A stretch of 34,687 nt of DNA from Phycisphaerae bacterium (lineage in GTDB: Bacteria > Planctomycetota > Phycisphaerae > UBA1845 > PWPN01): positions 1 to 34,687 of the forward strand of contig JAAYDF010000253.1 of the NCBI GenBank assembly GCA_012729395.1, written 5' to 3'. Both the position numbers and the translations under genes were made by a program. How positions within the stretch are numbered: position 1 is the first letter of the stretch; each line of letters begins with the position of its first letter. The notes beneath the pieces are model-generated. The model was not told the DNA's origin, made no database searches, and saw only the letters and a list, made by a program, of their open reading frames with translations. Of this stretch, positions 4,674 to 34,640 are shown in pieces.

Positions 4674-4776
4674 CAGAAAAATGGTGTCAGGATGATTTTT
4701 CCGGGACGAGCCGCCCGTTGGTTTTCCGCAACCGCTTCCGCGGCCCCGGAAAAATCATCCTGACACCATTTTTCTG
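4674..4776. repeat. Perfect 32-bp-arm palindrome (REP-like / terminator-like)
   Basis: Positions 4674-4705 and 4745-4776 are exact reverse complements over 32 bases, around a 39-nt loop (4706-4744). Each arm contains GGTGTCAGGA (4683-4692 and its complement at 4758-4767), which recurs at 34058-34067. The loop contains CCGCAACCGCTTCC (4726-4739), which recurs in the inverted repeat at 26284-26297. The element starts 14 bases after the rhamnosidase stop and ends in a T-run, so it could act as its terminator. The perfect arms suggest a recent or maintained mobile-type repeat. Confidence 0.9.
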
Positions 4777-16209: not shown

Positions 16210-19200
16210 TCATTGACTAACCTTTGCTGCTTGGTCTTTGTCGGCTGGCACGGGCTGCACCTTGCTCAGGCCGCGAGCGCCCGTGTCGTACAGAAACTCG
16301 GTGATCGCGGCGACCTGGCCGGTGGGGTCGTCCACCAGTCGAGGATCATGCAGTCGGGCACGAAGCCGCTCGCGATATTCGGGGGCAAATTCCGCGAAGG
16401 CGCTCGTTGTGCCGGTACCGAAATGGCTGGGCATCTTGGTGCCCGGCTGAATGCGGCCGGGTGCCTCCATCCAGGCTTGGACCCAAGGGCGGCGAAGCCG
16501 TCGGTGGGTGAGATCGAGGTTCTGGGCGGTCGGGTTGGTGATTGCCCCGGCGGCCCGCTCGTCTCCAAATACGTGACACGCGAGGCACTCCAACTCCATG
16601 AAGAGGATCTCGCCGTCGGCGACGCGCTGGGGCGATGACGACAAGGTGGGCGGGTCGTCCGTGAAGGGGTAGGCCACGGCCTGCAGGCGGCTGAGGAACT
16701 TGGCGTCGGCGAGGATCTCCGCATGTGCGGTCAGCAGTTCGTCGCGGTCGGCGTGTGCGGGGTCAATGCCGGCGGCAGGCACCAGACGGTTGCGGACGGC
16801 GTACCGACGAAGGGATTGCGTGGTCGCAGCCAGACGAGGCCGCTCGAACCATGCCGACACAGGTGGTGAGGCGATTGAGGATGAGTCGATTGGGTGGGGC
16901 GTCTCGTTGTGCTTGTGGACGGCGGCCAAGCGATCCGCGAGCCAGAGCGACTCCGCCTGAGCGAGGCCGGCAAAACAGGCGACGAGATCGGCGGTCTGGG
17001 GCGGCGTGAGGTTGAACTGCGGCATTCGGGTGTGCAGCCAGGGGCGGAGCGTGGTGACGTTGCGCAGATAGGCATAGTCCCAGTCGGGCCGCGTCTTGGC
17101 CCCTTGACCGCGGAGCGGCGGCGGGGCGTTTTCCTCATCGAAAACGCGTGTGGGGCCGAATACCACCTGGTAGTACTGATCGATCACCGCTTGGTTGCCG
17201 TCCAGGCGATGGCAGCCGACGCAGTTCAGCTCCCGCGCCAGCCGGCGACCTGCGGCCAGACGACCGGCAGGGGTATTGTCGTAGGCGATCCGGACCGGTG
17301 CGTCGACCAGGCTTTGCCGCCGAGAGAGCAGCCAGGTGGTTAACGCGCGGATCTGCCGGTTGCTCAAGAAGAAGTTGGGCATCTTGAGCTTGTCGTAGGG
17401 TTGTTTGTTCTGGCCGCGGTCCCAGATGCGGGGGTTGAGCAGTTTGTGGCGGGCGAAGGCATCGCGGCGATAGGCGATTTCCACGAGTCTGTTCTCACCG
17501 GCTCGCTCGATAAGTTCTTCACGGTGTCCCGGGTACAGGTGTTGCTGGTCAAGGTTCATTCGGCGACCGAGAGCGGATTGCGGATGGAAGATGCCGAAGT
17601 CGAGCCGATCGAGGGGGTTATCCGCCCAGTGGGTCAGCTCGGGGCCGGGCCGGGAGGCGGTTTCCATCCCGGGAATCCGATGGCAGGAGGCACAACCGTA
17701 ATGACGAATAGCCCGTTCGCCTAGAAGCACCCATCGCCTCTGATCCTCCGTGTGGGTCTCAGGGCGTGCAGGCAAAGCAGGTGATGCGAGCAGAACGCCA
17801 CCGGTGAGCGTGCGGTTCCCGCGATTGCCGGGATCGTGAAGAACCGCTTCCTGACGGGCGCGGCTCTGCTCGGCGCTCTCGGACATGAGCTTGTTCGCGT
17901 TGGTGCCCGGCATCCCATCATCATGTGCCACGGGTGGGAGGTTAAGGAGTTCGTCGCGTGTGGTTGCCAAACGGGCACGCTCAACTTCATCTTCATCGAA
18001 GTGTCGCCAAACGGTGGCGTCCGCGTCGCCCAGGGTCAGCAGGTATGCCGCGATGTCCAAGGCCTCGTCATGCGACGCGGCGGGGGGGCGCTGCCAGCGC
18101 ATGTCGGGCATGATAGTGTCCGGGGCGTAATGCCGAGGCTGGAGCAGCCAGTCATACAGCCATGCGACAGCTTGGGGGGAATCGCCGATCCGGCCGCGAA
18201 GGTTGGACAACTCCGGTGCCTGACGCGTGAAGACCGGTTCGCGAGCGGCCTCGGCGACGAACAGCCCCTCGCCGGCCTGGGGGAGATGCCGCAGGGCGTA
18301 CTCGGCTTGTTCGGTCGAGGTCATCGCCTCGGCCCGCGCGAACGCGTCATCCTCGATGCGGTCGAGGGCCTCATCGGTCAGTGCCTCGCGGCCTTGGGTG
18401 AGGACGAGTCTCGCCTCGGCCTGCGTGGCCAAATGATCGGCGATCCATGCGACCCCGAGTGTATCGGCAGGATTGCCGTCGGCGTCGTCCGGGCGATGGC
18501 TCAATGCGGCATGACAGCCCAGGCAACCCAGCGAGCCGAAGAGCTGGCGTCCTCGTTCGGCGCTGCCCGCAGAAGGATCAGTTGCCGGCAGGGGGGCTGG
18601 CGCATAGGTCGCACTGGCGGCCAGCAGGTACTCTGCGATGGCGACGACCTCTGCTCGCGTGCGTCCCTCGGGATCGGAGTCCCGCGCGGCGGTCACGGCC
18701 AAGGCGTCGTTGTTTTCCTGTCCAAAGGAGTGAGGCATGCGCGTCGCCGGCTGCACATCTCGCGGCCGCCAGAGCCAATGATGCAGGACGCCGCGACCCA
18801 GCTTGGCCGCCACATGCGTCAGATCCGTCCCCACGCGGCGGGCGTCGGCCGACTCTTCGACAAGGTGGCAGTTCACACAGCCGAGCGTGTCAGCCAGAAA
18901 CCGGCCTCTGTTGATGGCAGTGCCGATCGTTCGACCGTCGAAGGTCATGATGTCCGTCACCCGCTCGTGGCATTGGGTGCAGCCGGCTTCGGCGTATTCG
19001 CGAGGCAGCATGGGGCGATCCCAGCCCTCGCGGGCAGTCTCGAAGGTGTGCTCGGGGAATAGGCCGGCCAGTCGCACCTCGTGTCGCCGCGTCCACTCCC
19101 GCTTCTGGCTCCGGCTTGCTGGGGTGTGCCTGGCGAGGATGAAGTCCGTTTCCTCGCCGTGCCCCTCGTGGCAAACGGTGCATCCGGTGGCGGCCATCGG

Positions 19201-19680
19201 ATGTGGCGAATCTTTGCCAACCAAGAGATCGAGGTGCGGATGAGCAAGCAGGGGATGGTCGAGGTCGGGCGGGGAGTCCCCGCGAGCGGCAAGGTGATCG
19301 GTGTCGAAGGCCGGGTCGGCGATGGCCGCATGGCAGGTCATGCAGCGGTCGGTCCGTTGGCTGCGGACGAAGTGCAGGTTGTGGTGGATACCGGGCGGGC
19401 TGACCTGGAGGATCTCCTGGCGGCCGGGCGTACCGCGGGGGGCAAGAAAATCGATGAGGGGCAGGTTAAACCAGGCGGGTGTGGTTTCCGTCTTCTTGTT
19501 CGCGAGCAAGGCTCGTGTTTCATGATACTGCCGTTGCCACTCCCGCCACGGCCGCGCGTGATCGACCCAGACCCACCACAGGAGGCTGGCCAGCAGGGCA
19601 AGGCTCGCCAGGGCGAAGGCGAGACCGACCTTGCGCAGGCTGTAAACTTCATCCGGGCGGGGAGGCATCGCGCGGGGCAT
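16210..19680 (-). CDS. Membrane-anchored octahaem c-type cytochrome (two-part fusion)
   Basis: From ATG 19680 the product is 1156 residues. An N-terminal helix (about 18-40, VGLAFALASLALLASLLWWVWV) anchors it in the membrane with the rest periplasmic. Eight CxxCH haem sites begin at C113, C167, C234, C268, C386, C663, C820 and C1032. Met-Pro motifs at M315, M524, M767, M886 and M1083 are candidate axial ligands, as in class I cytochromes. Haems 1-5 form an N-terminal half and haems 6-8 a C-terminal half, joined by a linker (about 585-650). That linker contains SRARQEAVL, encoded by a dispersed REP-like repeat (17841-17876). The frame continues upstream to 19881, but that would overlap the divergent pyrC start. 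No strong Shine-Dalgarno is seen. The electron-transfer partner is unknown; no oxidase or reductase subunit is nearby. Confidence 0.88.
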   Translation of the reverse strand: MPRAMPPRPDEVYSLRKVGLAFALASLALLASLLWWVWVDHARPWREWQRQYHETRALLANKKTETTPAWFNLPLIDFLAPRGTPGRQEILQVSPPGIHHNLHFVRSQRTDRCMTCHAAIADPAFDTDHLAARGDSPPDLDHPLLAHPHLDLLVGKDSPHPMAATGCTVCHEGHGEETDFILARHTPASRSQKREWTRRHEVRLAGLFPEHTFETAREGWDRPMLPREYAEAGCTQCHERVTDIMTFDGRTIGTAINRGRFLADTLGCVNCHLVEESADARRVGTDLTHVAAKLGRGVLHHWLWRPRDVQPATRMPHSFGQENNDALAVTAARDSDPEGRTRAEVVAIAEYLLAASATYAPAPLPATDPSAGSAERGRQLFGSLGCLGCHAALSHRPDDADGNPADTLGVAWIADHLATQAEARLVLTQGREALTDEALDRIEDDAFARAEAMTSTEQAEYALRHLPQAGEGLFVAEAAREPVFTRQAPELSNLRGRIGDSPQAVAWLYDWLLQPRHYAPDTIMPDMRWQRPPAASHDEALDIAAYLLTLGDADATVWRHFDEDEVERARLATTRDELLNLPPVAHDDGMPGTNANKLMSESAEQSRARQEAVLHDPGNRGNRTLTGGVLLASPALPARPETHTEDQRRWVLLGERAIRHYGCASCHRIPGMETASRPGPELTHWADNPLDRLDFGIFHPQSALGRRMNLDQQHLYPGHREELIERAGENRLVEIAYRRDAFARHKLLNPRIWDRGQNKQPYDKLKMPNFFLSNRQIRALTTWLLSRRQSLVDAPVRIAYDNTPAGRLAAGRRLARELNCVGCHRLDGNQAVIDQYYQVVFGPTRVFDEENAPPPLRGQGAKTRPDWDYAYLRNVTTLRPWLHTRMPQFNLTPPQTADLVACFAGLAQAESLWLADRLAAVHKHNETPHPIDSSSIASPPVSAWFERPRLAATTQSLRRYAVRNRLVPAAGIDPAHADRDELLTAHAEILADAKFLSRLQAVAYPFTDDPPTLSSSPQRVADGEILFMELECLACHVFGDERAAGAITNPTAQNLDLTHRRLRRPWVQAWMEAPGRIQPGTKMPSHFGTGTTSAFAEFAPEYRERLRARLHDPRLVDDPTGQVAAITEFLYDTGARGLSKVQPVPADKDQAAKVSQ
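17841..17876 (+). repeat. REP-like repeat (ACCGCTTCC family) inside the cytochrome gene
   Basis: This 36-base segment matches 19711-19746 at 34 of 36 positions in the same orientation. It shares the ACCGCTTCC core and GCGGCTCTGC end with the inverted repeat at 26249-26315. Read on the minus strand it encodes about twelve cytochrome residues (roughly 602-613) without breaking the frame. Confidence 0.85.
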
Positions 19681-19710
19681 TATACCGCGGCAAGCCACGA
19701 AACCCAGAAG

Positions 19711-19746
19711 GACCGCTTCCTGACGGGCGCGGCTCTGCTTGGCGCC
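19711..19746 (+). repeat. REP-like repeat (ACCGCTTCC family) upstream of the cytochrome gene
   Basis: Second copy of the repeat at 17841-17876, same orientation, 1.87 kb away. It lies in the divergent gap between the cytochrome start (19680) and pyrC (19829). Read on the minus strand it would also encode QSRARQEAVL in the cytochrome frame, but no ATG is available to include it without overlapping pyrC. Confidence 0.85.
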
Positions 19747-23293: not shown

Positions 23294-23388
23294 GAGCCGC
23301 GGGCTTTGAGCCCGCGCGGTTCTCTGGCCGAGATCAGAGGTTACCTTACGTGTAAGCACCGCGCGGGCTGAAGCCCGCGGCTCTTTGG
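23294..23388. repeat. Inverted pair of GC-rich palindromic repeats (GCCGCGGGCT family)
   Basis: Copy 1 (23294-23320) and copy 2 (23358-23388, opposite strand) differ by about one base and one indel over 26-27 bases. Each is itself palindromic around GCGGGCT/AGCCCGC. Copy 2 is identical over 31 bases to 34603-34633 in the other orientation. The pair fills most of the ligA to glycosidase gap and could fold into a large stem-loop. Confidence 0.85.
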
Positions 23389-23440: not shown

Positions 23441-26209
23441 ATGCGTATGAAGTATTTGGTATCAACGGTCGCGGCGGCATCTCTGGTCACCGTAGCGGCG
23501 TCTTGGTGTGTCGCGGCGGTGGCGACGTTTGACGACGCCGCGGCGTTGGAGGGTTGGACGTTCTATGAAGGCCGGGAGTTCCCCGGGGCCACGGGCCGCA
23601 TCGCGTGGGAAGGCGGAGACGGCAGGGCGGCGCCCGGTTGCCTGGCTCTGCATCACGACTTTGCCGGCGGTGGCAACTACGTTCAGGCGGGGTGGACTCT
23701 GCCGCGCGACAACCAGGCCCGCAGCGTGCGCCTTTGGCTACGCAAGCCGCATCGCCACCGGGTGACCTTCCGCTGCGTCGACAGTCAAGGCCAGACCTTC
23801 CAGAAGGGTGTGGACTACGACTTTGACGAGTGGCAACAGATCGAGATCGAGCTGACCGGTTGGCAGAGTTTCTTCGGTGGTGCCGCGGACGGCCGGGTAC
23901 GCTTTCCGATCCGGCAGTTCGCCATCTTGATCGAGAACAACGCGGAGCCGCGGCAGGGAGTCCTGCTGATCGACGACGTGGAGTTGATCGAGGGGGCGGC
24001 GGATGCGGAGGCTACTGCGGACAGTCTGGCGACCTACACGGCCAGCGATTTCGCGGGCCAGCCGGGCTGGTCCGCCGGCGGCGGCGAGGGCAACCGCTTC
24101 GAAGACCGGGTCTGGACGTATGCTTTCAACGAGGGCCGAGAGCCGGCCCTCACAAGCCATTTCTCCCTGCTGGGCAGGCCCCGGTCGCTACGGCTTGTGG
24201 TGGCGGGCGATACGCTCGGCAGCGCGGTGCATGTTGAGTTGGGCTCGCACTTTCAGACTTTCTATCGCGAAATTGGCCGGCTGACTGGCCAGGGCGAGCA
24301 GGCGATCGAGGTCCCGCTCGGTGACATGAGCACCTGGCAGCATCGGGGCGGGCAGGATGACGGGCAGCTTCGACTGCCTTTGCGTATGCAGCGCATCCGC
24401 CTGACGCGAGCAAACGGTCCGCCGCAAGGCACGCTGCGGCTGGTTCGCCTGGAGGTCGATACCTTGTTGCCGCCGGGTCAGACGGTCCTGATGGTGCCCG
24501 ACGCCCGGCTCGAAGACGGCGAGGCCCGTTTCTCCGTGCGTGTCAGCAACGTCGTGCCGCAGCAGGCCAGCGGGCAACTGGTCTGTGACATGCGCAGCAT
24601 CGGCTCTCTCGTACGCCGCGAGATCGTCGACTTGTCACTCGATCCGGCCGGTGCCCCGGTGGTGCGCACCTTCACCTGCCCGATGGGCGATCACCGGTCG
24701 CTGGATGCCATGTTCTCGTGGATCGCGGCAGGCTCGGCATCGCCACCGGCGTATATCGGCGTGGGCACCTGGCCCGAGGAGCCTGCCGCGCCGACGCTCG
24801 AACCCAACAGCCCCTTCGGCATGGGCATGTACCTCTACCGTTGGCGAGGCAATCCCCACGCCCGCGAACGCATGACCGAGGCGGCTCGCCTCGCCCAGCG
24901 GGCAGGGGTGAAATGGACTCGCGAGGAGTTTCAATGGCACGCCATCGAGCCCGCCCGTGGACAGTTCGAGTGGGCCTTCTATGACGATCTCGTAGCGACC
25001 CATCTGGCCCACGGGATTCAGATCTATGGCCTGCTCTGCTATTGGTCGGGCTGGACGAAACCCAATACCGACGAGGGCATCAGCGATTACTGTGCCTGGG
25101 TTCGCCAGGTCGTGCGGCGGTATAGGGATCGCATTCGGCACTGGCAGATCTGGAACGAGCCCAACATCTTCTTCTGGACCGGGCCGCGGGAGATGTATGC
25201 CGACCTGCTGGCCCAGGCTTACGCGGTCATCAAGGAGGAAGATCCGGATGCCGTTGTGTTGGGCTGCTCATCGTCAGGCATCGATACGGGCTTCATCCGC
25301 ATGGTCATGGAACGCGGCGGGCGTTTCGACGCCTTGGCCGTGCATCCATACCGTGGTGCACTCAACGACCTCGACTACATCCGCGAGCTCAAGGCGGCCC
25401 ATGAGTTGAGCGGCGGCCGGCCGTTGTGGCTGACCGAGATCGGTTTCCCCACGCAGCAGCAAGGGGGCTGGAGCGAGCGGAACCAAGCGTCTATGCTGGC
25501 CCGCATCTACACGACTTCGCTGGCCAGCGGCGTCGTGGCCAATGTCTCCTGGTACAACTTCCGCAACGACGGGCCGGACCCTTTCGAGAGCGAGCAGAAC
25601 TTCGGCGTGGTGCGAACGGACTTCCGGCCCAAGCCGGCCTACGCCGCCCTGGCTGCGGTCGCTCATCAGCTTGCGGGTGTCAAAGTGGCCGGGCAAATCG
25701 CCGTGGGCGAGGGCGCGTATGCGTTCCGGTTCAGCGGCGACGGCGAGGATGTCATCGTTGCCTGTGCGCCGGTCAGCGGACGATTGCTGACCATTGAGGC
25801 CATCGCAAAGCTATCGGCCTGCAACGCGGTGGGCGAGCCGATCGCCTTGGCCCGTGATGGCGATCGTGTCACGGTCACGCTGGATGCCGGTTTCCCGGTG
25901 TATATTCGTGGCCCGGCCGGGTTCGCCTGCACCGTTCGCGAGCCGGCGGTCAGTGTGCGGGCGGACAAACTGCGCGTCCGGCCGGGCGATGCCATCGCTC
26001 TGGATGTGTATCCGCGAGTCGAGGTGGCCGACTGGGAGTTGCCGCCAGGCTGGCCCCGCCCGGAGAAGCAGGCGGCCGGCGGGTATCGCCTCGACGTGCC
26101 CGCGGAAGCGACGGCGGGCGAACACTTGCTGCGCGTGATCGTTCGGCAGGGAGCATTGTTGCGCATCCCCGTGGTCGTGCGCGTGCAGCCGCAGGTGCTT
26201 CGCGTGTAG
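23441..26209 (+). CDS. Secreted clan GH-A glycoside hydrolase (GH39-like) with N-terminal beta domains
   Basis: The 922-residue product has a signal peptide (about 1-26). Two carbohydrate-binding-like beta domains follow (about 28-185 and 205-345). A catalytic TIM barrel covers about 455-745, then C-terminal beta modules. The barrel opens with NSPFGMGMYLYRW and contains HWQIWNEPN, the acid/base Glu E573 after Asn. LWLTEIGFPT supplies the nucleophile E666. This Glu pair on strands 4 and 7 defines clan GH-A retaining enzymes; AVHPYRG and VSWYNFRNDG are supporting motifs. It resembles GH39/GH5-related proteins, but the specificity is not readable. ATG 23441 lacks a good Shine-Dalgarno; ATG 23447 is an alternative. 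It stands alone between repeat-filled gaps. Confidence 0.85.
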   Translation: MRMKYLVSTVAAASLVTVAASWCVAAVATFDDAAALEGWTFYEGREFPGATGRIAWEGGDGRAAPGCLALHHDFAGGGNYVQAGWTLPRDNQARSVRLWLRKPHRHRVTFRCVDSQGQTFQKGVDYDFDEWQQIEIELTGWQSFFGGAADGRVRFPIRQFAILIENNAEPRQGVLLIDDVELIEGAADAEATADSLATYTASDFAGQPGWSAGGGEGNRFEDRVWTYAFNEGREPALTSHFSLLGRPRSLRLVVAGDTLGSAVHVELGSHFQTFYREIGRLTGQGEQAIEVPLGDMSTWQHRGGQDDGQLRLPLRMQRIRLTRANGPPQGTLRLVRLEVDTLLPPGQTVLMVPDARLEDGEARFSVRVSNVVPQQASGQLVCDMRSIGSLVRREIVDLSLDPAGAPVVRTFTCPMGDHRSLDAMFSWIAAGSASPPAYIGVGTWPEEPAAPTLEPNSPFGMGMYLYRWRGNPHARERMTEAARLAQRAGVKWTREEFQWHAIEPARGQFEWAFYDDLVATHLAHGIQIYGLLCYWSGWTKPNTDEGISDYCAWVRQVVRRYRDRIRHWQIWNEPNIFFWTGPREMYADLLAQAYAVIKEEDPDAVVLGCSSSGIDTGFIRMVMERGGRFDALAVHPYRGALNDLDYIRELKAAHELSGGRPLWLTEIGFPTQQQGGWSERNQASMLARIYTTSLASGVVANVSWYNFRNDGPDPFESEQNFGVVRTDFRPKPAYAALAAVAHQLAGVKVAGQIAVGEGAYAFRFSGDGEDVIVACAPVSGRLLTIEAIAKLSACNAVGEPIALARDGDRVTVTLDAGFPVYIRGPAGFACTVREPAVSVRADKLRVRPGDAIALDVYPRVEVADWELPPGWPRPEKQAAGGYRLDVPAEATAGEHLLRVIVRQGALLRIPVVVRVQPQVLRV

Positions 26210-26215
26210 TCGCCG

Positions 26216-26257
26216 CCCCGGCAGAGCCGCCCCGGCAGAGCCGCCCCGGCAGAGCCG
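26216..26257. repeat. Three tandem 14-bp units
   Basis: CCCCGGCAGAGCCG is repeated exactly three times (26216-26229, 26230-26243, 26244-26257), starting just after the glycosidase stop. The last unit runs into the left arm of the inverted repeat that follows, so it looks like slippage at the edge of that element. Confidence 0.9.
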
Positions 26258-26315
26258 CGACCGTAAGGAAGCGGTTCTTGTCGCCGCAACCGCTTCCTTA
26301 CGGTCGCGGCTCTGC
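26249..26315. repeat. Perfect 28-bp-arm inverted repeat (ACCGCTTCC family)
   Basis: Arms 26249-26276 and 26288-26315 are exact reverse complements around an 11-nt spacer. The right arm carries AACCGCTTCC ... GCGGCTCTGC, the same ends as the copies at 17841 and 19711. The paired arrangement is like REP doublets (BIMEs). It could end transcription of the glycosidase, although no T-run follows. Confidence 0.9.
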
Positions 26316-27573: not shown

Positions 27574-30500
27574 TCAACCCTCATGGAACGAGGGGCATGC
27601 CCCCGACGCCGTTTGGTTCAGGCTGTTGCGTATATGCACCAAGTCAAAGATGTTGATGTTGCCATCGGTATTCACGTCTGCCTCAAACGTGCTCGCATCC
27701 ACGCTCTGGTTGAGCCGATTTCTGGTGAGAACCAGATCGAAGATATTGACCGTGCCATCGCGGTTGGCGTCGCCGGCCAGAACCTTGAAGCAGACGAAAT
27801 CTGTCACTACCGCCGCGGGGTTATAGGCGTCCGAGATGCCCGGGAACTGGATGCTGAAGACCTGGGCATTCTGCACTCCTGACAGCTCGATCTCCAAAGC
27901 CTGATTGCCGGGCCGCATGGTCACGTTGGAGACGGTCCCGTTGGAGGTGAGCACGGAATCGACGGACAGTCCCTCGGCGGCCTGAATGGCCTTGTCGAAC
28001 TCGACGATGAGCAGTATGGGGCCATCGGCTCGCGGCTCCACCCCGCTGGGTTCACTCACGTCCAGGTCGAACGAGCCTGCGGTGCTGTGAGTTCGCCGGG
28101 AAATCGCATTGGTCACCACCGGAGGCGCGGTGCCTCGCCAGCCGACGTCTTCAGTACTCCAGCCGCTGGCTCCCAGCCCGGTGTCGTCGGTGGCCGCCTT
28201 GACCCAGTAGTAGTAGTACACGGTCTGCTGGGCGGTTTCGTCGTCGATCTGGAGATCGGTGATCCAGTCGGTGATCGGCTCGCTGCCCGCCACGACGTTG
28301 TAGTTGTAGCGATAGACGCGGTAGTGGGTGGCGTCGGGTACGGCATCCCACCGCACGTTCACGAATCCGAGATAGGTGCCCTTGCTGGCCATGACGTTGG
28401 CCGGTGCGGAGACCACGCGGTAACCGGTGTCCGGGCCCGCGGCGGCGGTGGGATGAGCACCGTCGCCCGCCGCGGAGACCACCCAGTAGTAGTAGGTCGT
28501 CCCCGGCTCGGCAGTGGTGTCGTCAAAGTTGCGAGGCCAGATCCAGTCGCTGATCGGCGAGGCGAGGTTGAAGTCCGAGGTCAACCCGCGCAGCACTCGG
28601 CAAGCGGCGTAGCTTGACGATTGGCTCCAGGTGATTCGGACACGGTTGCTGTAGGTGCCGTCGGTGGCGACGACGTTGGTGGCCGCGGGCAGGGCCCGCC
28701 AGCCGCTGTCCGACGGGCTGAAGGGTGACGCGCAGAAACCGAACTGGTCGCCGGCACCCTTGATCCAGTAGTAGTAGTTCTTGCCCGGATCGGCGTAGAT
28801 GTCATCGTAGCTGGTGGCCGTCGTCCAGGTGCCCTGGGCGGAAGCCGTGTCGGGATCGTCCACCGTGTTGCGGTAGAGCCGGTACTGCGTGGCTCCGGGC
28901 AGGGAACTCCAGGTGACGGTGATCTGGGTCTGCGAGCTGCCGTCGCTGGCGACCGGGGCGGAAGGTGTCCCCAGTGAGCGAAATCCCGCCGCGGGCAGGG
29001 AACTGAGATCCGAGGGGCGCGAGCCTGCCGAGGTGGTTGCGCTCTGCAGCCAGTAGTAATACGAGGTGCAGGTGTTATCCGGCGTGTCCTCGTAGCTGGT
29101 CTCGCTGATCCAGTCGGTCAGCGGGGTGGCGTCAAGTACGTTGCTCGTTTCGGCCCGGTGAACGCGGTAGTAACTGGCCCCGGCCGCCGCGTTCCAACTG
29201 ACCACAATCTTGTCGGGATAGGTGCCACCGGTAGCCATGAGGCCGTCAGGCGGGCTGAGTTTGCGCCAGCCACTGTTGGAGCTACTGAACGCGCTGGCTC
29301 TTTCGCCCTGGTCATTGACGGCGGCCTTGACCCAGTAATACATGGTCAGCCCGGGTGAGACGGTCGTGTCGTTGAAGCTGGTTGCCGAGATCCAGCCGGT
29401 GATGGGGCCGGAAAGCGCGGAGATGTTCGCCTGACTGCGGTAAACGCGGTAATGCGTGGCTTCGCTGACTGCGCTCCAGGCAATCCTCGTGTACCCGGTA
29501 TACGCGCCGTCGCTGGCGCTGACCCCGGTCGGCGCCGATACCGGTGCCGCCGGCCGATAGCCGGTGTCCGGCATACTGTACACGCTGGCGTTGTTACCAG
29601 AGCTGCTCGTGCCGACTTTCACCCAGTAGTAGTAGGGCGCGCCTTGAGCGGCCGTGGTGTCGTCGTAGGTGGTCGCGGTCTGCCAGGTGCCCAGGGCGGT
29701 CGCGGCACCGGGATCAGCAGAAACACCCCTGAACACGCGATAGTACTTGTTGCCGCTGTAATCCGGCCCGGTCCAGGTGACCCGGACATAGCCGGCATAG
29801 GTGCCGTCGGAGGCGTCGACACCGGTCGGTGCGGGCAGAGCCTGCTGGCCGATGCCGCACCACTCCAGCACCAGGCTGGAGGCGTTTGTGCCGGTCGAGC
29901 TGACCGCCGCCTTGACCCAGTAGAAGTACTGAGTCAACGGCTCGGTGACGAACAGGTCGTCGAAGCTTAGTCCCGTCTGCCAGCCGGAGATCGCGGTCGC
30001 CCCGGTCAGGCTGTAGGTGGTGTTGCGGTACACCTGGTAGTGCGACGCGACCCCGCCCGCGGCCGGCCAGGTCACCCGAATGCGATCGTTGAACGTGCGA
30101 TCCGAAGCGGTCACCACAGGCGGCGTCAGTGCGCGATAACCGGCGTTGCTGCTGCTGAAACCGCTTTGCGTCTGGCATTCTCGAATGGCTTTGATCCAGT
30201 AGTAGTAGGTCTTGCCTGCCAACGCCGAATTGTCATAGTACGTGGTCGTGACGATCGGCACGTCGAGGGCCATGGCATTGGCCGAGTTGTTCGTGTCCGC
30301 CCGGTACACCTGGTAGGCCCAGGCTCCCGACACGGCGTTCCAGGTCACCTGCACGTTGGTGGTGCTGGTGCCGTCGCTGGCGGCGACGCCCGTCGGAGCG
30401 GAGATGCTCGGGCAGGTCACCGAGATCGGCAGATACACCGAGGTGGTGTTGTTGGGCAGGTAGTCATCCCACGACGAATTGTCGTTGTCTCCAGTGATCC

Positions 30501-32322
30501 GCAGCGTGATGTAGTAGGTGTCGTACGCGACCGTTGCGGCCGGGATGGTCGTGGTCAAATCAAGTACCGCGTATTGCTCGGCGGGAACGGAAGCAAATTG
30601 CCACACCGTCGGGCATTCCCAGGTTGTGCCGTTGCGCTCGGAGGATAGATACATCCGCACCTTGACGTTCGGCGAAGCATATCGCGACATGTTCTCGATC
30701 GTGACATTCTGGACCGTGATGGTCTCGCCGGGTACATAGCTCCCGCCGGTCTGGGCGTTCCAGTTCCACTTGTTGGTGGTGGCGTGTTTCAGACCATCCT
30801 GGGCGTAGTATGACTCGATGCCCAGGTCGTTGACCGTCTGGATGCTGGTCTGGCCGTCGTAGATCGCACGCAGCTTCTTGACGTCGCTGACGTGCAGGCC
30901 GAAGCCGTCCTCGACGATATCGTGATACGCGCCGTGCATGATGGTGGGCTCGTCGTAGTCGTAGGTCTCGTTGCCGCGTTGCAGGCCCCAGGTGTGCCCC
31001 AACTCATGTATGGCGACGGGCAGGTAAATGTACCTGTCGTAGTGGCCCAGGGTGACGGACAGATCGGGATGCCAGACCAGGCCATACTTATACATTACGT
31101 CGGCTTCCAGGATCTCGCCGCACTGGCTGAAGAAAAAAGAACTGCACATCCCGATGGCCGTGCCCCAGCCGGAGTCATAGGCGCTCTTCCTCTGCTTCTC
31201 GGTGACGAAGCCGCAGATCTCGCTGTACCAGTTGTGCCCGAAGCTGCCGTCGTCGTCGCGCTGACGGAAGATGTCCATGAACGTGTTGGTGGCCTGCATC
31301 GCGTGGATGTCCAGCGGATACATCCAGAAGCTCGGCGACACGCACTCCATCACTTGAAACAGATCGACATAGCCGCATCTGTGCAGACTACCACCTTCGA
31401 CGGCACGGCCCTCCTTGATGGCGGTGGCCAAGTCGGTAATGCCTTTGGCGGCCGCGAGAGCGGCCAAGCTCTGCTCCGTCAGTCCCTCCGGACCGAGCTG
31501 CCAGGCCGCAGATTGTCCCAGCTTGCCCATCGGCTCGTTGGGATCCTGGGCGGCTTCGTTGGCTGCCAGAATCGCCGGCAGTACCGGCCTGGCGGGCGGC
31601 GGGCCCGTCAATGCCTGCTTCACCAGTCCCAGAAAACCGTCCAAGGTCACAATCGGTTGCGAGGAAGCTTCCACCACCTTGCGCACCGCGGGCTGGGGAG
31701 CGTCCGGCGAGGTCCACGGCTCCGGGATGGGATCGCCGGTGTCCATCGCCCGCGGAGCAAACACCGCCTGGCCGGCCTCGATACGCTCGACAACCGGCGT
31801 GCACTTCAGCCGACCCTGGCTTAGCCCGGTAACTCCCTTGCGGCTGGCAGTCAGTACATACTCCTGACTCCCATCAGCATCCGCGACGACGCGAAACAGC
31901 CCCTGGTTCCCCCCGATGAGCGGTGTCGCATGAACTTGGCCGTTCATGAGCGTGAACAGCAGGTACTTCCCGCCTACCTCAAAATCCGGGGCGTCGCTCA
32001 CCATCATGAAGATGTTGCCCAACTGTCCACCTTCGTGGGTCAGGGTGAACGGGGCGGCTAAGTCGCCCTCCACCCCTGCCCGTTTGTGGACCGGCGTCAC
32101 CGGGTCGAAGACGACATCAGTCAAAATGGTGTTGCCATTCGGGCCGGGCCTGCATGCCATCTGCTGAACCGTCCCAACGAAGATAGCGTCCGAAGCCTGG
32201 GCCAGCTCGTCGAACCCCAGGCGAGGCTGCAGAGCGTAGGCTGGTAATGGTCCAAGAAGCGCCGCAAGGCAGGTCATGGCGCACAGAACCCCTATCCCCT
32301 CCGCGCGGTTGTACGTTAACAT
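27574..32322 (-). CDS. Giant secreted metzincin-like protein with CARDB, eight FN3 domains and dockerin
   Basis: From ATG 32322 the product is 1582 residues. The start is set by AGAGGAAG six bases upstream and by the signal peptide (MLTYNRAEGIGVLCAMTCLAALL..., about 1-30). A conserved N-terminal region (about 30-150) and linker precede a protease-like domain with AIHELGHTWGLQRGN (H439, E440, H443) and a Met-turn-like PTIMHG (M462). The third metzincin ligand is R449 instead of His. A CARDB-like domain (about 525-635) comes next, then eight FN3 units of about 94 residues (about 640-1395) with recurring YYYWVKAA and GWR. A beta domain follows, then a dockerin pair: GDANRDGTVNIFDLV (about 1514) and ADVNTDGNINIFDLV. 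Probably surface-exposed; proteolytic activity is uncertain. The frame is also open upstream to 32535, without a ribosome site. Confidence 0.88.
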   Translation of the reverse strand: MLTYNRAEGIGVLCAMTCLAALLGPLPAYALQPRLGFDELAQASDAIFVGTVQQMACRPGPNGNTILTDVVFDPVTPVHKRAGVEGDLAAPFTLTHEGGQLGNIFMMVSDAPDFEVGGKYLLFTLMNGQVHATPLIGGNQGLFRVVADADGSQEYVLTASRKGVTGLSQGRLKCTPVVERIEAGQAVFAPRAMDTGDPIPEPWTSPDAPQPAVRKVVEASSQPIVTLDGFLGLVKQALTGPPPARPVLPAILAANEAAQDPNEPMGKLGQSAAWQLGPEGLTEQSLAALAAAKGITDLATAIKEGRAVEGGSLHRCGYVDLFQVMECVSPSFWMYPLDIHAMQATNTFMDIFRQRDDDGSFGHNWYSEICGFVTEKQRKSAYDSGWGTAIGMCSSFFFSQCGEILEADVMYKYGLVWHPDLSVTLGHYDRYIYLPVAIHELGHTWGLQRGNETYDYDEPTIMHGAYHDIVEDGFGLHVSDVKKLRAIYDGQTSIQTVNDLGIESYYAQDGLKHATTNKWNWNAQTGGSYVPGETITVQNVTIENMSRYASPNVKVRMYLSSERNGTTWECPTVWQFASVPAEQYAVLDLTTTIPAATVAYDTYYITLRITGDNDNSSWDDYLPNNTTSVYLPISVTCPSISAPTGVAASDGTSTTNVQVTWNAVSGAWAYQVYRADTNNSANAMALDVPIVTTTYYDNSALAGKTYYYWIKAIRECQTQSGFSSSNAGYRALTPPVVTASDRTFNDRIRVTWPAAGGVASHYQVYRNTTYSLTGATAISGWQTGLSFDDLFVTEPLTQYFYWVKAAVSSTGTNASSLVLEWCGIGQQALPAPTGVDASDGTYAGYVRVTWTGPDYSGNKYYRVFRGVSADPGAATALGTWQTATTYDDTTAAQGAPYYYWVKVGTSSSGNNASVYSMPDTGYRPAAPVSAPTGVSASDGAYTGYTRIAWSAVSEATHYRVYRSQANISALSGPITGWISATSFNDTTVSPGLTMYYWVKAAVNDQGERASAFSSSNSGWRKLSPPDGLMATGGTYPDKIVVSWNAAAGASYYRVHRAETSNVLDATPLTDWISETSYEDTPDNTCTSYYYWLQSATTSAGSRPSDLSSLPAAGFRSLGTPSAPVASDGSSQTQITVTWSSLPGATQYRLYRNTVDDPDTASAQGTWTTATSYDDIYADPGKNYYYWIKGAGDQFGFCASPFSPSDSGWRALPAATNVVATDGTYSNRVRITWSQSSSYAACRVLRGLTSDFNLASPISDWIWPRNFDDTTAEPGTTYYYWVVSAAGDGAHPTAAAGPDTGYRVVSAPANVMASKGTYLGFVNVRWDAVPDATHYRVYRYNYNVVAGSEPITDWITDLQIDDETAQQTVYYYYWVKAATDDTGLGASGWSTEDVGWRGTAPPVVTNAISRRTHSTAGSFDLDVSEPSGVEPRADGPILLIVEFDKAIQAAEGLSVDSVLTSNGTVSNVTMRPGNQALEIELSGVQNAQVFSIQFPGISDAYNPAAVVTDFVCFKVLAGDANRDGTVNIFDLVLTRNRLNQSVDASTFEADVNTDGNINIFDLVHIRNSLNQTASGACPSFHEG
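28125..30405 (-). repeat. Array of eight FN3-coding repeats
   Basis: Eight units of about 280 bp encode FN3 domains. Each contains a YYYW-type stretch, so CCAGTAGTAGTAG recurs on the plus strand (for example near 28206, 28482, 28768 and 30196). Units are diverged elsewhere, so the array is not recent. Confidence 0.85.
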
Positions 32323-32328
32323 GTTACG

Positions 32329-32336
32329 CTTCCTCT
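32329..32336 (-). promoter_or_regulatory. Shine-Dalgarno fixing the start at 32322
   Basis: AGAGGAAG on the minus strand lies six bases before the ATG. It selects the signal-peptide start over the upstream open frame. Confidence 0.7.
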
Positions 32337-32410
32337 TGCGATGCCCTCCGGCACCGTGTGGTTGGAAATGGCTTCGACCCAGCCGCCACAGACAAGGCCA
32401 CCTTATTCCC

Positions 32411-32416
32411 ATTATA
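32411..32416 (-). promoter_or_regulatory. Possible -10 box for the metzincin-like gene
   Basis: TATAAT on the minus strand, about 90 bases upstream of the ATG. The hexamer 17 bases further up is GGTGCA, a poor -35. Confidence 0.35.
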
Positions 32417-32691
32417 CATCTCCATTTGCGCAATGCACCTGTCTTTATTAAGATTTGGCACGACAGCGAGGAGCCCCCCCGCCCCATCTTGGACCTATAT
32501 TCCGCAACTATGTGAAAAATCAATATGAACTGCAATTGCGGTTCGTTGCGATGCCGGTTGTCGATCCCGACAATCTGAAATGCCGTTGCAGCTTCGTGCG
32601 ACGCAGGGAGTACCGGAGGAAAAATACTGAAAGGCGGTTCCTCGGCTCGCGGTGAATGGGTTCGCCTGGGCCTTGTCGGTACGGCCCCTCA
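32417..32691. other. Intergenic stretch upstream of the metzincin-like gene
   Basis: This is the rest of a 369-bp gap (32323-32691). It is AT-richer than the genes. Near 32527-32544 is an 18-bp near-palindrome, GAACTGCAA/TTGCGGTTC, with one mismatch, that could be an operator. No coding frame is convincing. Confidence 0.4.
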
Positions 32692-34602: not shown

Positions 34603-34640
34603 CCAAAGAGCCGCGGGCTTCAGCCCGCGCGGTTCTTCGA
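34603..34640 (+). repeat. GC-rich palindromic repeat (GCCGCGGGCT family), third copy
   Basis: Positions 34603-34633 are identical over 31 bases to the reverse complement of 23358-23388. The tail CCGCGCGGTTCTTCGA recurs at 34672-34687. Confidence 0.85.

Follow-up and report, generated by a model that had tools for sequence, protein, structure and literature searches.

In Rickettsia, palindromic elements (RPE) are repeats that lie within functional genes and are translated in frame. The GTAG and CGTC superfamilies of REPs consist of short palindromes, mostly intergenic and often arranged as head-to-head dimers, and according to PMC3733652 they include Planctomycetes; GTAG-type REPs are linked to RAYT, and REPs flanking RAYT are described there as well. 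The same paper reports intragenic REPs in several phyla, with in-frame dimers that code for 20-30 residues, and the view that protein-coding palindromes are unusual outside Rickettsia is therefore too strong (PMC3733652).

Here, we describe a REP within a cytochrome gene of a Phycisphaerae bacterium, encoded in the whole stretch of DNA that was analysed (34,687 nucleotides, hereafter the window). The cytochrome insert is a clean new example of an already known phenomenon, the in-frame intragenic REP. No account of this particular REP family was found in the open-access literature.

The cytochrome gene and its REP dimer

The start of the cytochrome gene was placed at ~19680 using homologue alignments, which begin at residue 3-4. 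Homologues were detected in 52 of the 101 genomes searched (own genome counted), and no solved structure matches the protein by sequence. The window comes from a fragmented assembly, although the cytochrome ORF keeps in line with its homologues both before and after the REP.

The original prediction placed a 36-bp repeat (17841-17876) inside this ORF, between its five-haem and three-haem parts. Both placements hold, as the repeat is in frame on the minus strand, with EQSRARQEAV corresponding to residues ~604-613, and five of the eight CXXCH motifs precede it while three follow it. The repeat is real, but it is only one arm of a dimer and not the whole element. With the cytochrome copies left out of the weight matrix, we detected a degenerate opposite arm at 17790, so the in-gene unit is a dimer of which the 36-mer is the intact half. 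This arm (PWM -6.6) is the top-scoring position of the window after four intact arms, against a 95th percentile of -31.8 for random 75-mers. The dimer is in frame and free of stops. Read on the minus strand, the decayed arm gives NRTLTGGVLL where the family reading is NRFLTGAALL, and its mismatches number 2/4/6 at codon positions 1/2/3, a pattern that, with its small numbers, is suggestive of translation.

Table 1. Coordinates of the cytochrome gene and of the REP elements in the window
Feature	Position	Strand	Basis
Eight-haem (5+3 CXXCH) cytochrome c, single ORF, 1156 aa, with insertion	16210..19680	-	Pfam Cytochrom_C, Cytochrom_c3_2; start from homologue alignment
Linker part extra to closest homologues: dimer plus ~19 further residues	17785..17943	-	G002 and G011, 59-aa linker vs 107
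Whole head-to-head REP dimer, REPIN-like, ~29 codons	~17786..17873 (~88 bp)	-	Weight matrix, opposite arm
REP arm, intact, 26-bp core without mismatches, reads EQSRARQEAV	17844..17869	-	Within the originally predicted 36-mer, 17841-17876
Opposite REP arm of this dimer, degenerate	17790..17815	+	PWM score -6.6
Single REP arm upstream of cytochrome start, non-coding, without opposite arm	19713..19738	-	Core search, weight matrix
Comparison: ordinary intact REP dimer following the ORF that ends at 26209	26249..26315		Core search, weight matrix

The 26-bp core matches the window four times, far above chance, as shuffled sequences give 0.00. Allowing up to three mismatches to the core, we counted 191 arms (98+93) in the genome and 0 for a reversed-pattern control, and the family is present in 70 of the 101 genomes of the order. 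A strong opposite arm (PWM >20) lies within 75 bp 3' of 96 of the 143 arms and upstream of none, thus the family comprises inverted dimers and single arms. Among 87 sampled elements (129 arms) there were 37 +- pairs and 46 singles. The +- spacing is mostly 38-46 bp, and most dimers cut from this genome are 70-78 bp long, some 89. By inspection, the core is able to pair as AGAGCCGC/GCGGTTCT; single-strand folds of single copies with their flanks were no better than those of shuffles. In four of the six frames hardly any REP arm contains a stop (0.94-1.00 of copies open), and whole dimers are not unusually open, with 3.47 open frames compared with 3.52 in the control.

The window also includes other repeats. 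In positions 5-1420 a 93-bp unit stands in tandem in at least 13 copies (93 bp would equal a protein repeat of 31 residues), and a minus-strand ORF of 1653 aa (27574-32535) contains repeated segments ~280-290 bp apart.

Origin of the linker insert

Two REP copies of the same orientation bracket the N-terminal part of the cytochrome, an arrangement for which fusion of two separate cytochrome genes through recombination between the copies had been put forward. The 34/36 identity of the upstream copy was correctly noted, its register being 19710-19745 and thus one base off the predicted 19711-19746; because the gene starts at ~19680, this copy lies ~33 bp before the start and is non-coding. Two further copies elsewhere in the genome are equally near to the in-gene repeat (34/36), and the flanks of the in-gene and upstream copies (100 bp on each side) share 23% and 21% identity, approximately chance level. 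All 29 homologue loci that were read out, representing several families, encode one ORF with eight CXXCH motifs, and for this reason the fusion idea was removed; we give it next to no credence.

Insertion of a palindromic element into the linker, which had been offered beside fusion, is supported by the closest homologues. An alignment with homologues had been suggested as a check, and in it the linker residues are absent from the most similar cytochromes by identity (54%), those of G002 and G011, whose linkers of 59 aa, against 107 here, are ~48 aa shorter and without the REP; their genomes contain zero copies of it. Linkers of 86-109 aa were found in more distant homologues, G010 among them, so the linker is variable and the clean absence of the REP holds only against the two closest homologues. 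The extra segment measures 48 aa and the dimer 29 aa, which leaves ~19 residues that the dimer does not explain. AlphaFold modelled the linker segment poorly (pLDDT 49), and this model was set aside.

Conservation of the peptide in distant homologues had been named as the observation that would speak for ordinary protein sequence, and here the outcome is mixed, mostly negative. In pairwise BLOSUM comparisons with homologue linkers, the REP peptide exceeds shuffles, of which a fraction of 0.001 reach its score, as well as other stretches of the protein, and this likeness falls on the linkers of one distant family (f8). Such a score is what an ordinary ancestral linker would give, a charged helix like QRSERRSRAIMDD of f8 whose resemblance to the REP arose by convergence. 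This explanation is highly implausible, being contradicted at the DNA level, where all 26 bases agree with a core that has 191 occurrences, a second arm stands at dimer spacing, and the homologue linkers checked contain no REP-like DNA. The closest homologues also lack the peptide, and in a profile built from the 29 homologues the insert gains nothing, with 273.2 bits when it is included and 273.0 when it is left out, and 200 of 200 shuffles score equal or better. On these sequence grounds, we take the REP peptide as foreign to the cytochrome.

The REP could also have replaced an ancestral linker of ~90 residues, by insertion and deletion or by gene conversion, its helix-like peptide then being kept as fitting. 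Linkers of 86-100 aa in G010 and most of the distant homologues, next to the 107 aa here, are consistent with such an exchange, as is the pairwise score of the cytochrome peptide against the linkers (26.5), compared with at most 23.3 for 71 other same-frame REP dimers. The profile does not share this preference, as 64 of the 71 other dimers equal or exceed the cytochrome insert, and replacement appears unlikely.

We consider it very probable that a RAYT-mobilised REP dimer was inserted in frame in the variable linker of an eight-haem cytochrome that already existed as a single protein. Its two parts, with five and three haems, would have been connected by this linker when RAYT moved the dimer, which would have entered in frame and been read as ~30 extra residues. 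These residues may make up a surface loop that the protein tolerates and that has little or no function, and the insertion would date back far enough to allow the decay of one arm, with the frame preserved.

RAYT genes and in-frame copies in other proteins

In the relatives, 12 of 30 loci of one RAYT group, or 13 of 31 with G020 included, carry the REP both before and after the gene; of 29 control loci, 1 has a REP at any position. These flanks mostly carry a + REP at the 5' side and a - REP at the 3' side. A member of the REP-flanked group is encoded in the own genome (contig C199), and the own Y1_Tnp loci, the C199 RAYT included, are not flanked by the cytochrome REP. By linkage, the loci of the relatives support a mobilisation of the REP by RAYT, which would account for how the dimer is moved.

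Further repeats were seen near genes of this type. Of the twelve REP arms counted at the RAYT locus L222 (G015:C4, 1081-2037), six make up a 39-bp tandem array at its 3' side. A second REP family, AGAGCCGCGGGCTTCAGCCCGCGCGGT, occurs twice in the window (23358-23384, minus strand, and 34607-34633, plus strand) and in 57 genome copies; a Y1_Tnp gene on C317 is flanked by it and another on C148 adjoins it, and in its outer stem the family is similar to the cytochrome REP. A third repeat, AAAAATGGTGTCAGGATGATTTTT, forms a perfect inverted pair in the window (4677-4773), has 134 genome copies, and is found once on each side of a Y1_Tnp gene (C260:85667-86011).

A search of the genome for the repeat inside other ORFs, also suggested with the original prediction, detected in-frame REPs in conserved domains of HypF (68 aa compared with 15 in 3vth, positions 629-645) and of NAD(P)H-hydrate dehydratase, where the element is a dimer (81 aa compared with ~12 in 2ax3, positions 361-373). 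In the related MAG Phycisphaerales SJ659, an SSF symporter contains a REP at residue 320, and the stretches on either side of it (28-279 and 456-634) align to solved SGLT1. Across these three proteins the REP is read as PLPDGRGS, AEPRPSGSGS and QSRDRKEAV, three different readings, so no one frame is favoured. The extra segments of HypF and the dehydratase exceed the length of the REP, as does that of the cytochrome. These intragenic calls are based on an open frame together with Pfam and PDB evidence, and many open-frame candidates that represent N-terminal extensions or unsupported ORFs were left out of the count. A screen by codon usage was too strict, missing even the cytochrome, and was replaced. 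That the planctomycete RAYT-linked REP is a repeated source of protein linkers, with the cytochrome peptide under protein-level constraint and possibly serving the linker, strikes us as quite improbable.

Comparison with described systems

The observations provide several clean in-frame insertions of a RAYT-linked REP family in a little-studied lineage, a setting in which to study how frequently mobile palindromes lengthen working proteins and how they decay. They also call for caution in annotation, as what lengthens these proteins is mobile DNA and not conserved sequence.

With the REPINs and their RAYT (Bertels and Rainey 2011, as cited in PMC3733652), the cytochrome element shares a unit of two inverted arms, and in relatives inverted REPs flank RAYT genes; it differs in that the related RAYT of the own genome is unflanked, and we infer the mobility of the cytochrome REP. 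The GTAG and CGTC intragenic REPs are likewise short palindromic repeats that form head-to-head dimers, some in frame in genes, and the cytochrome REP differs from them in its core, for a GTAG or CGTC tag was looked for at both ends of the consensus core and was absent. The likeness to the Rickettsia RPE is one of description, in that a palindrome is translated in frame within functional genes, whereas the cytochrome REP belongs to an unrelated phylum and its family is read in three frames.
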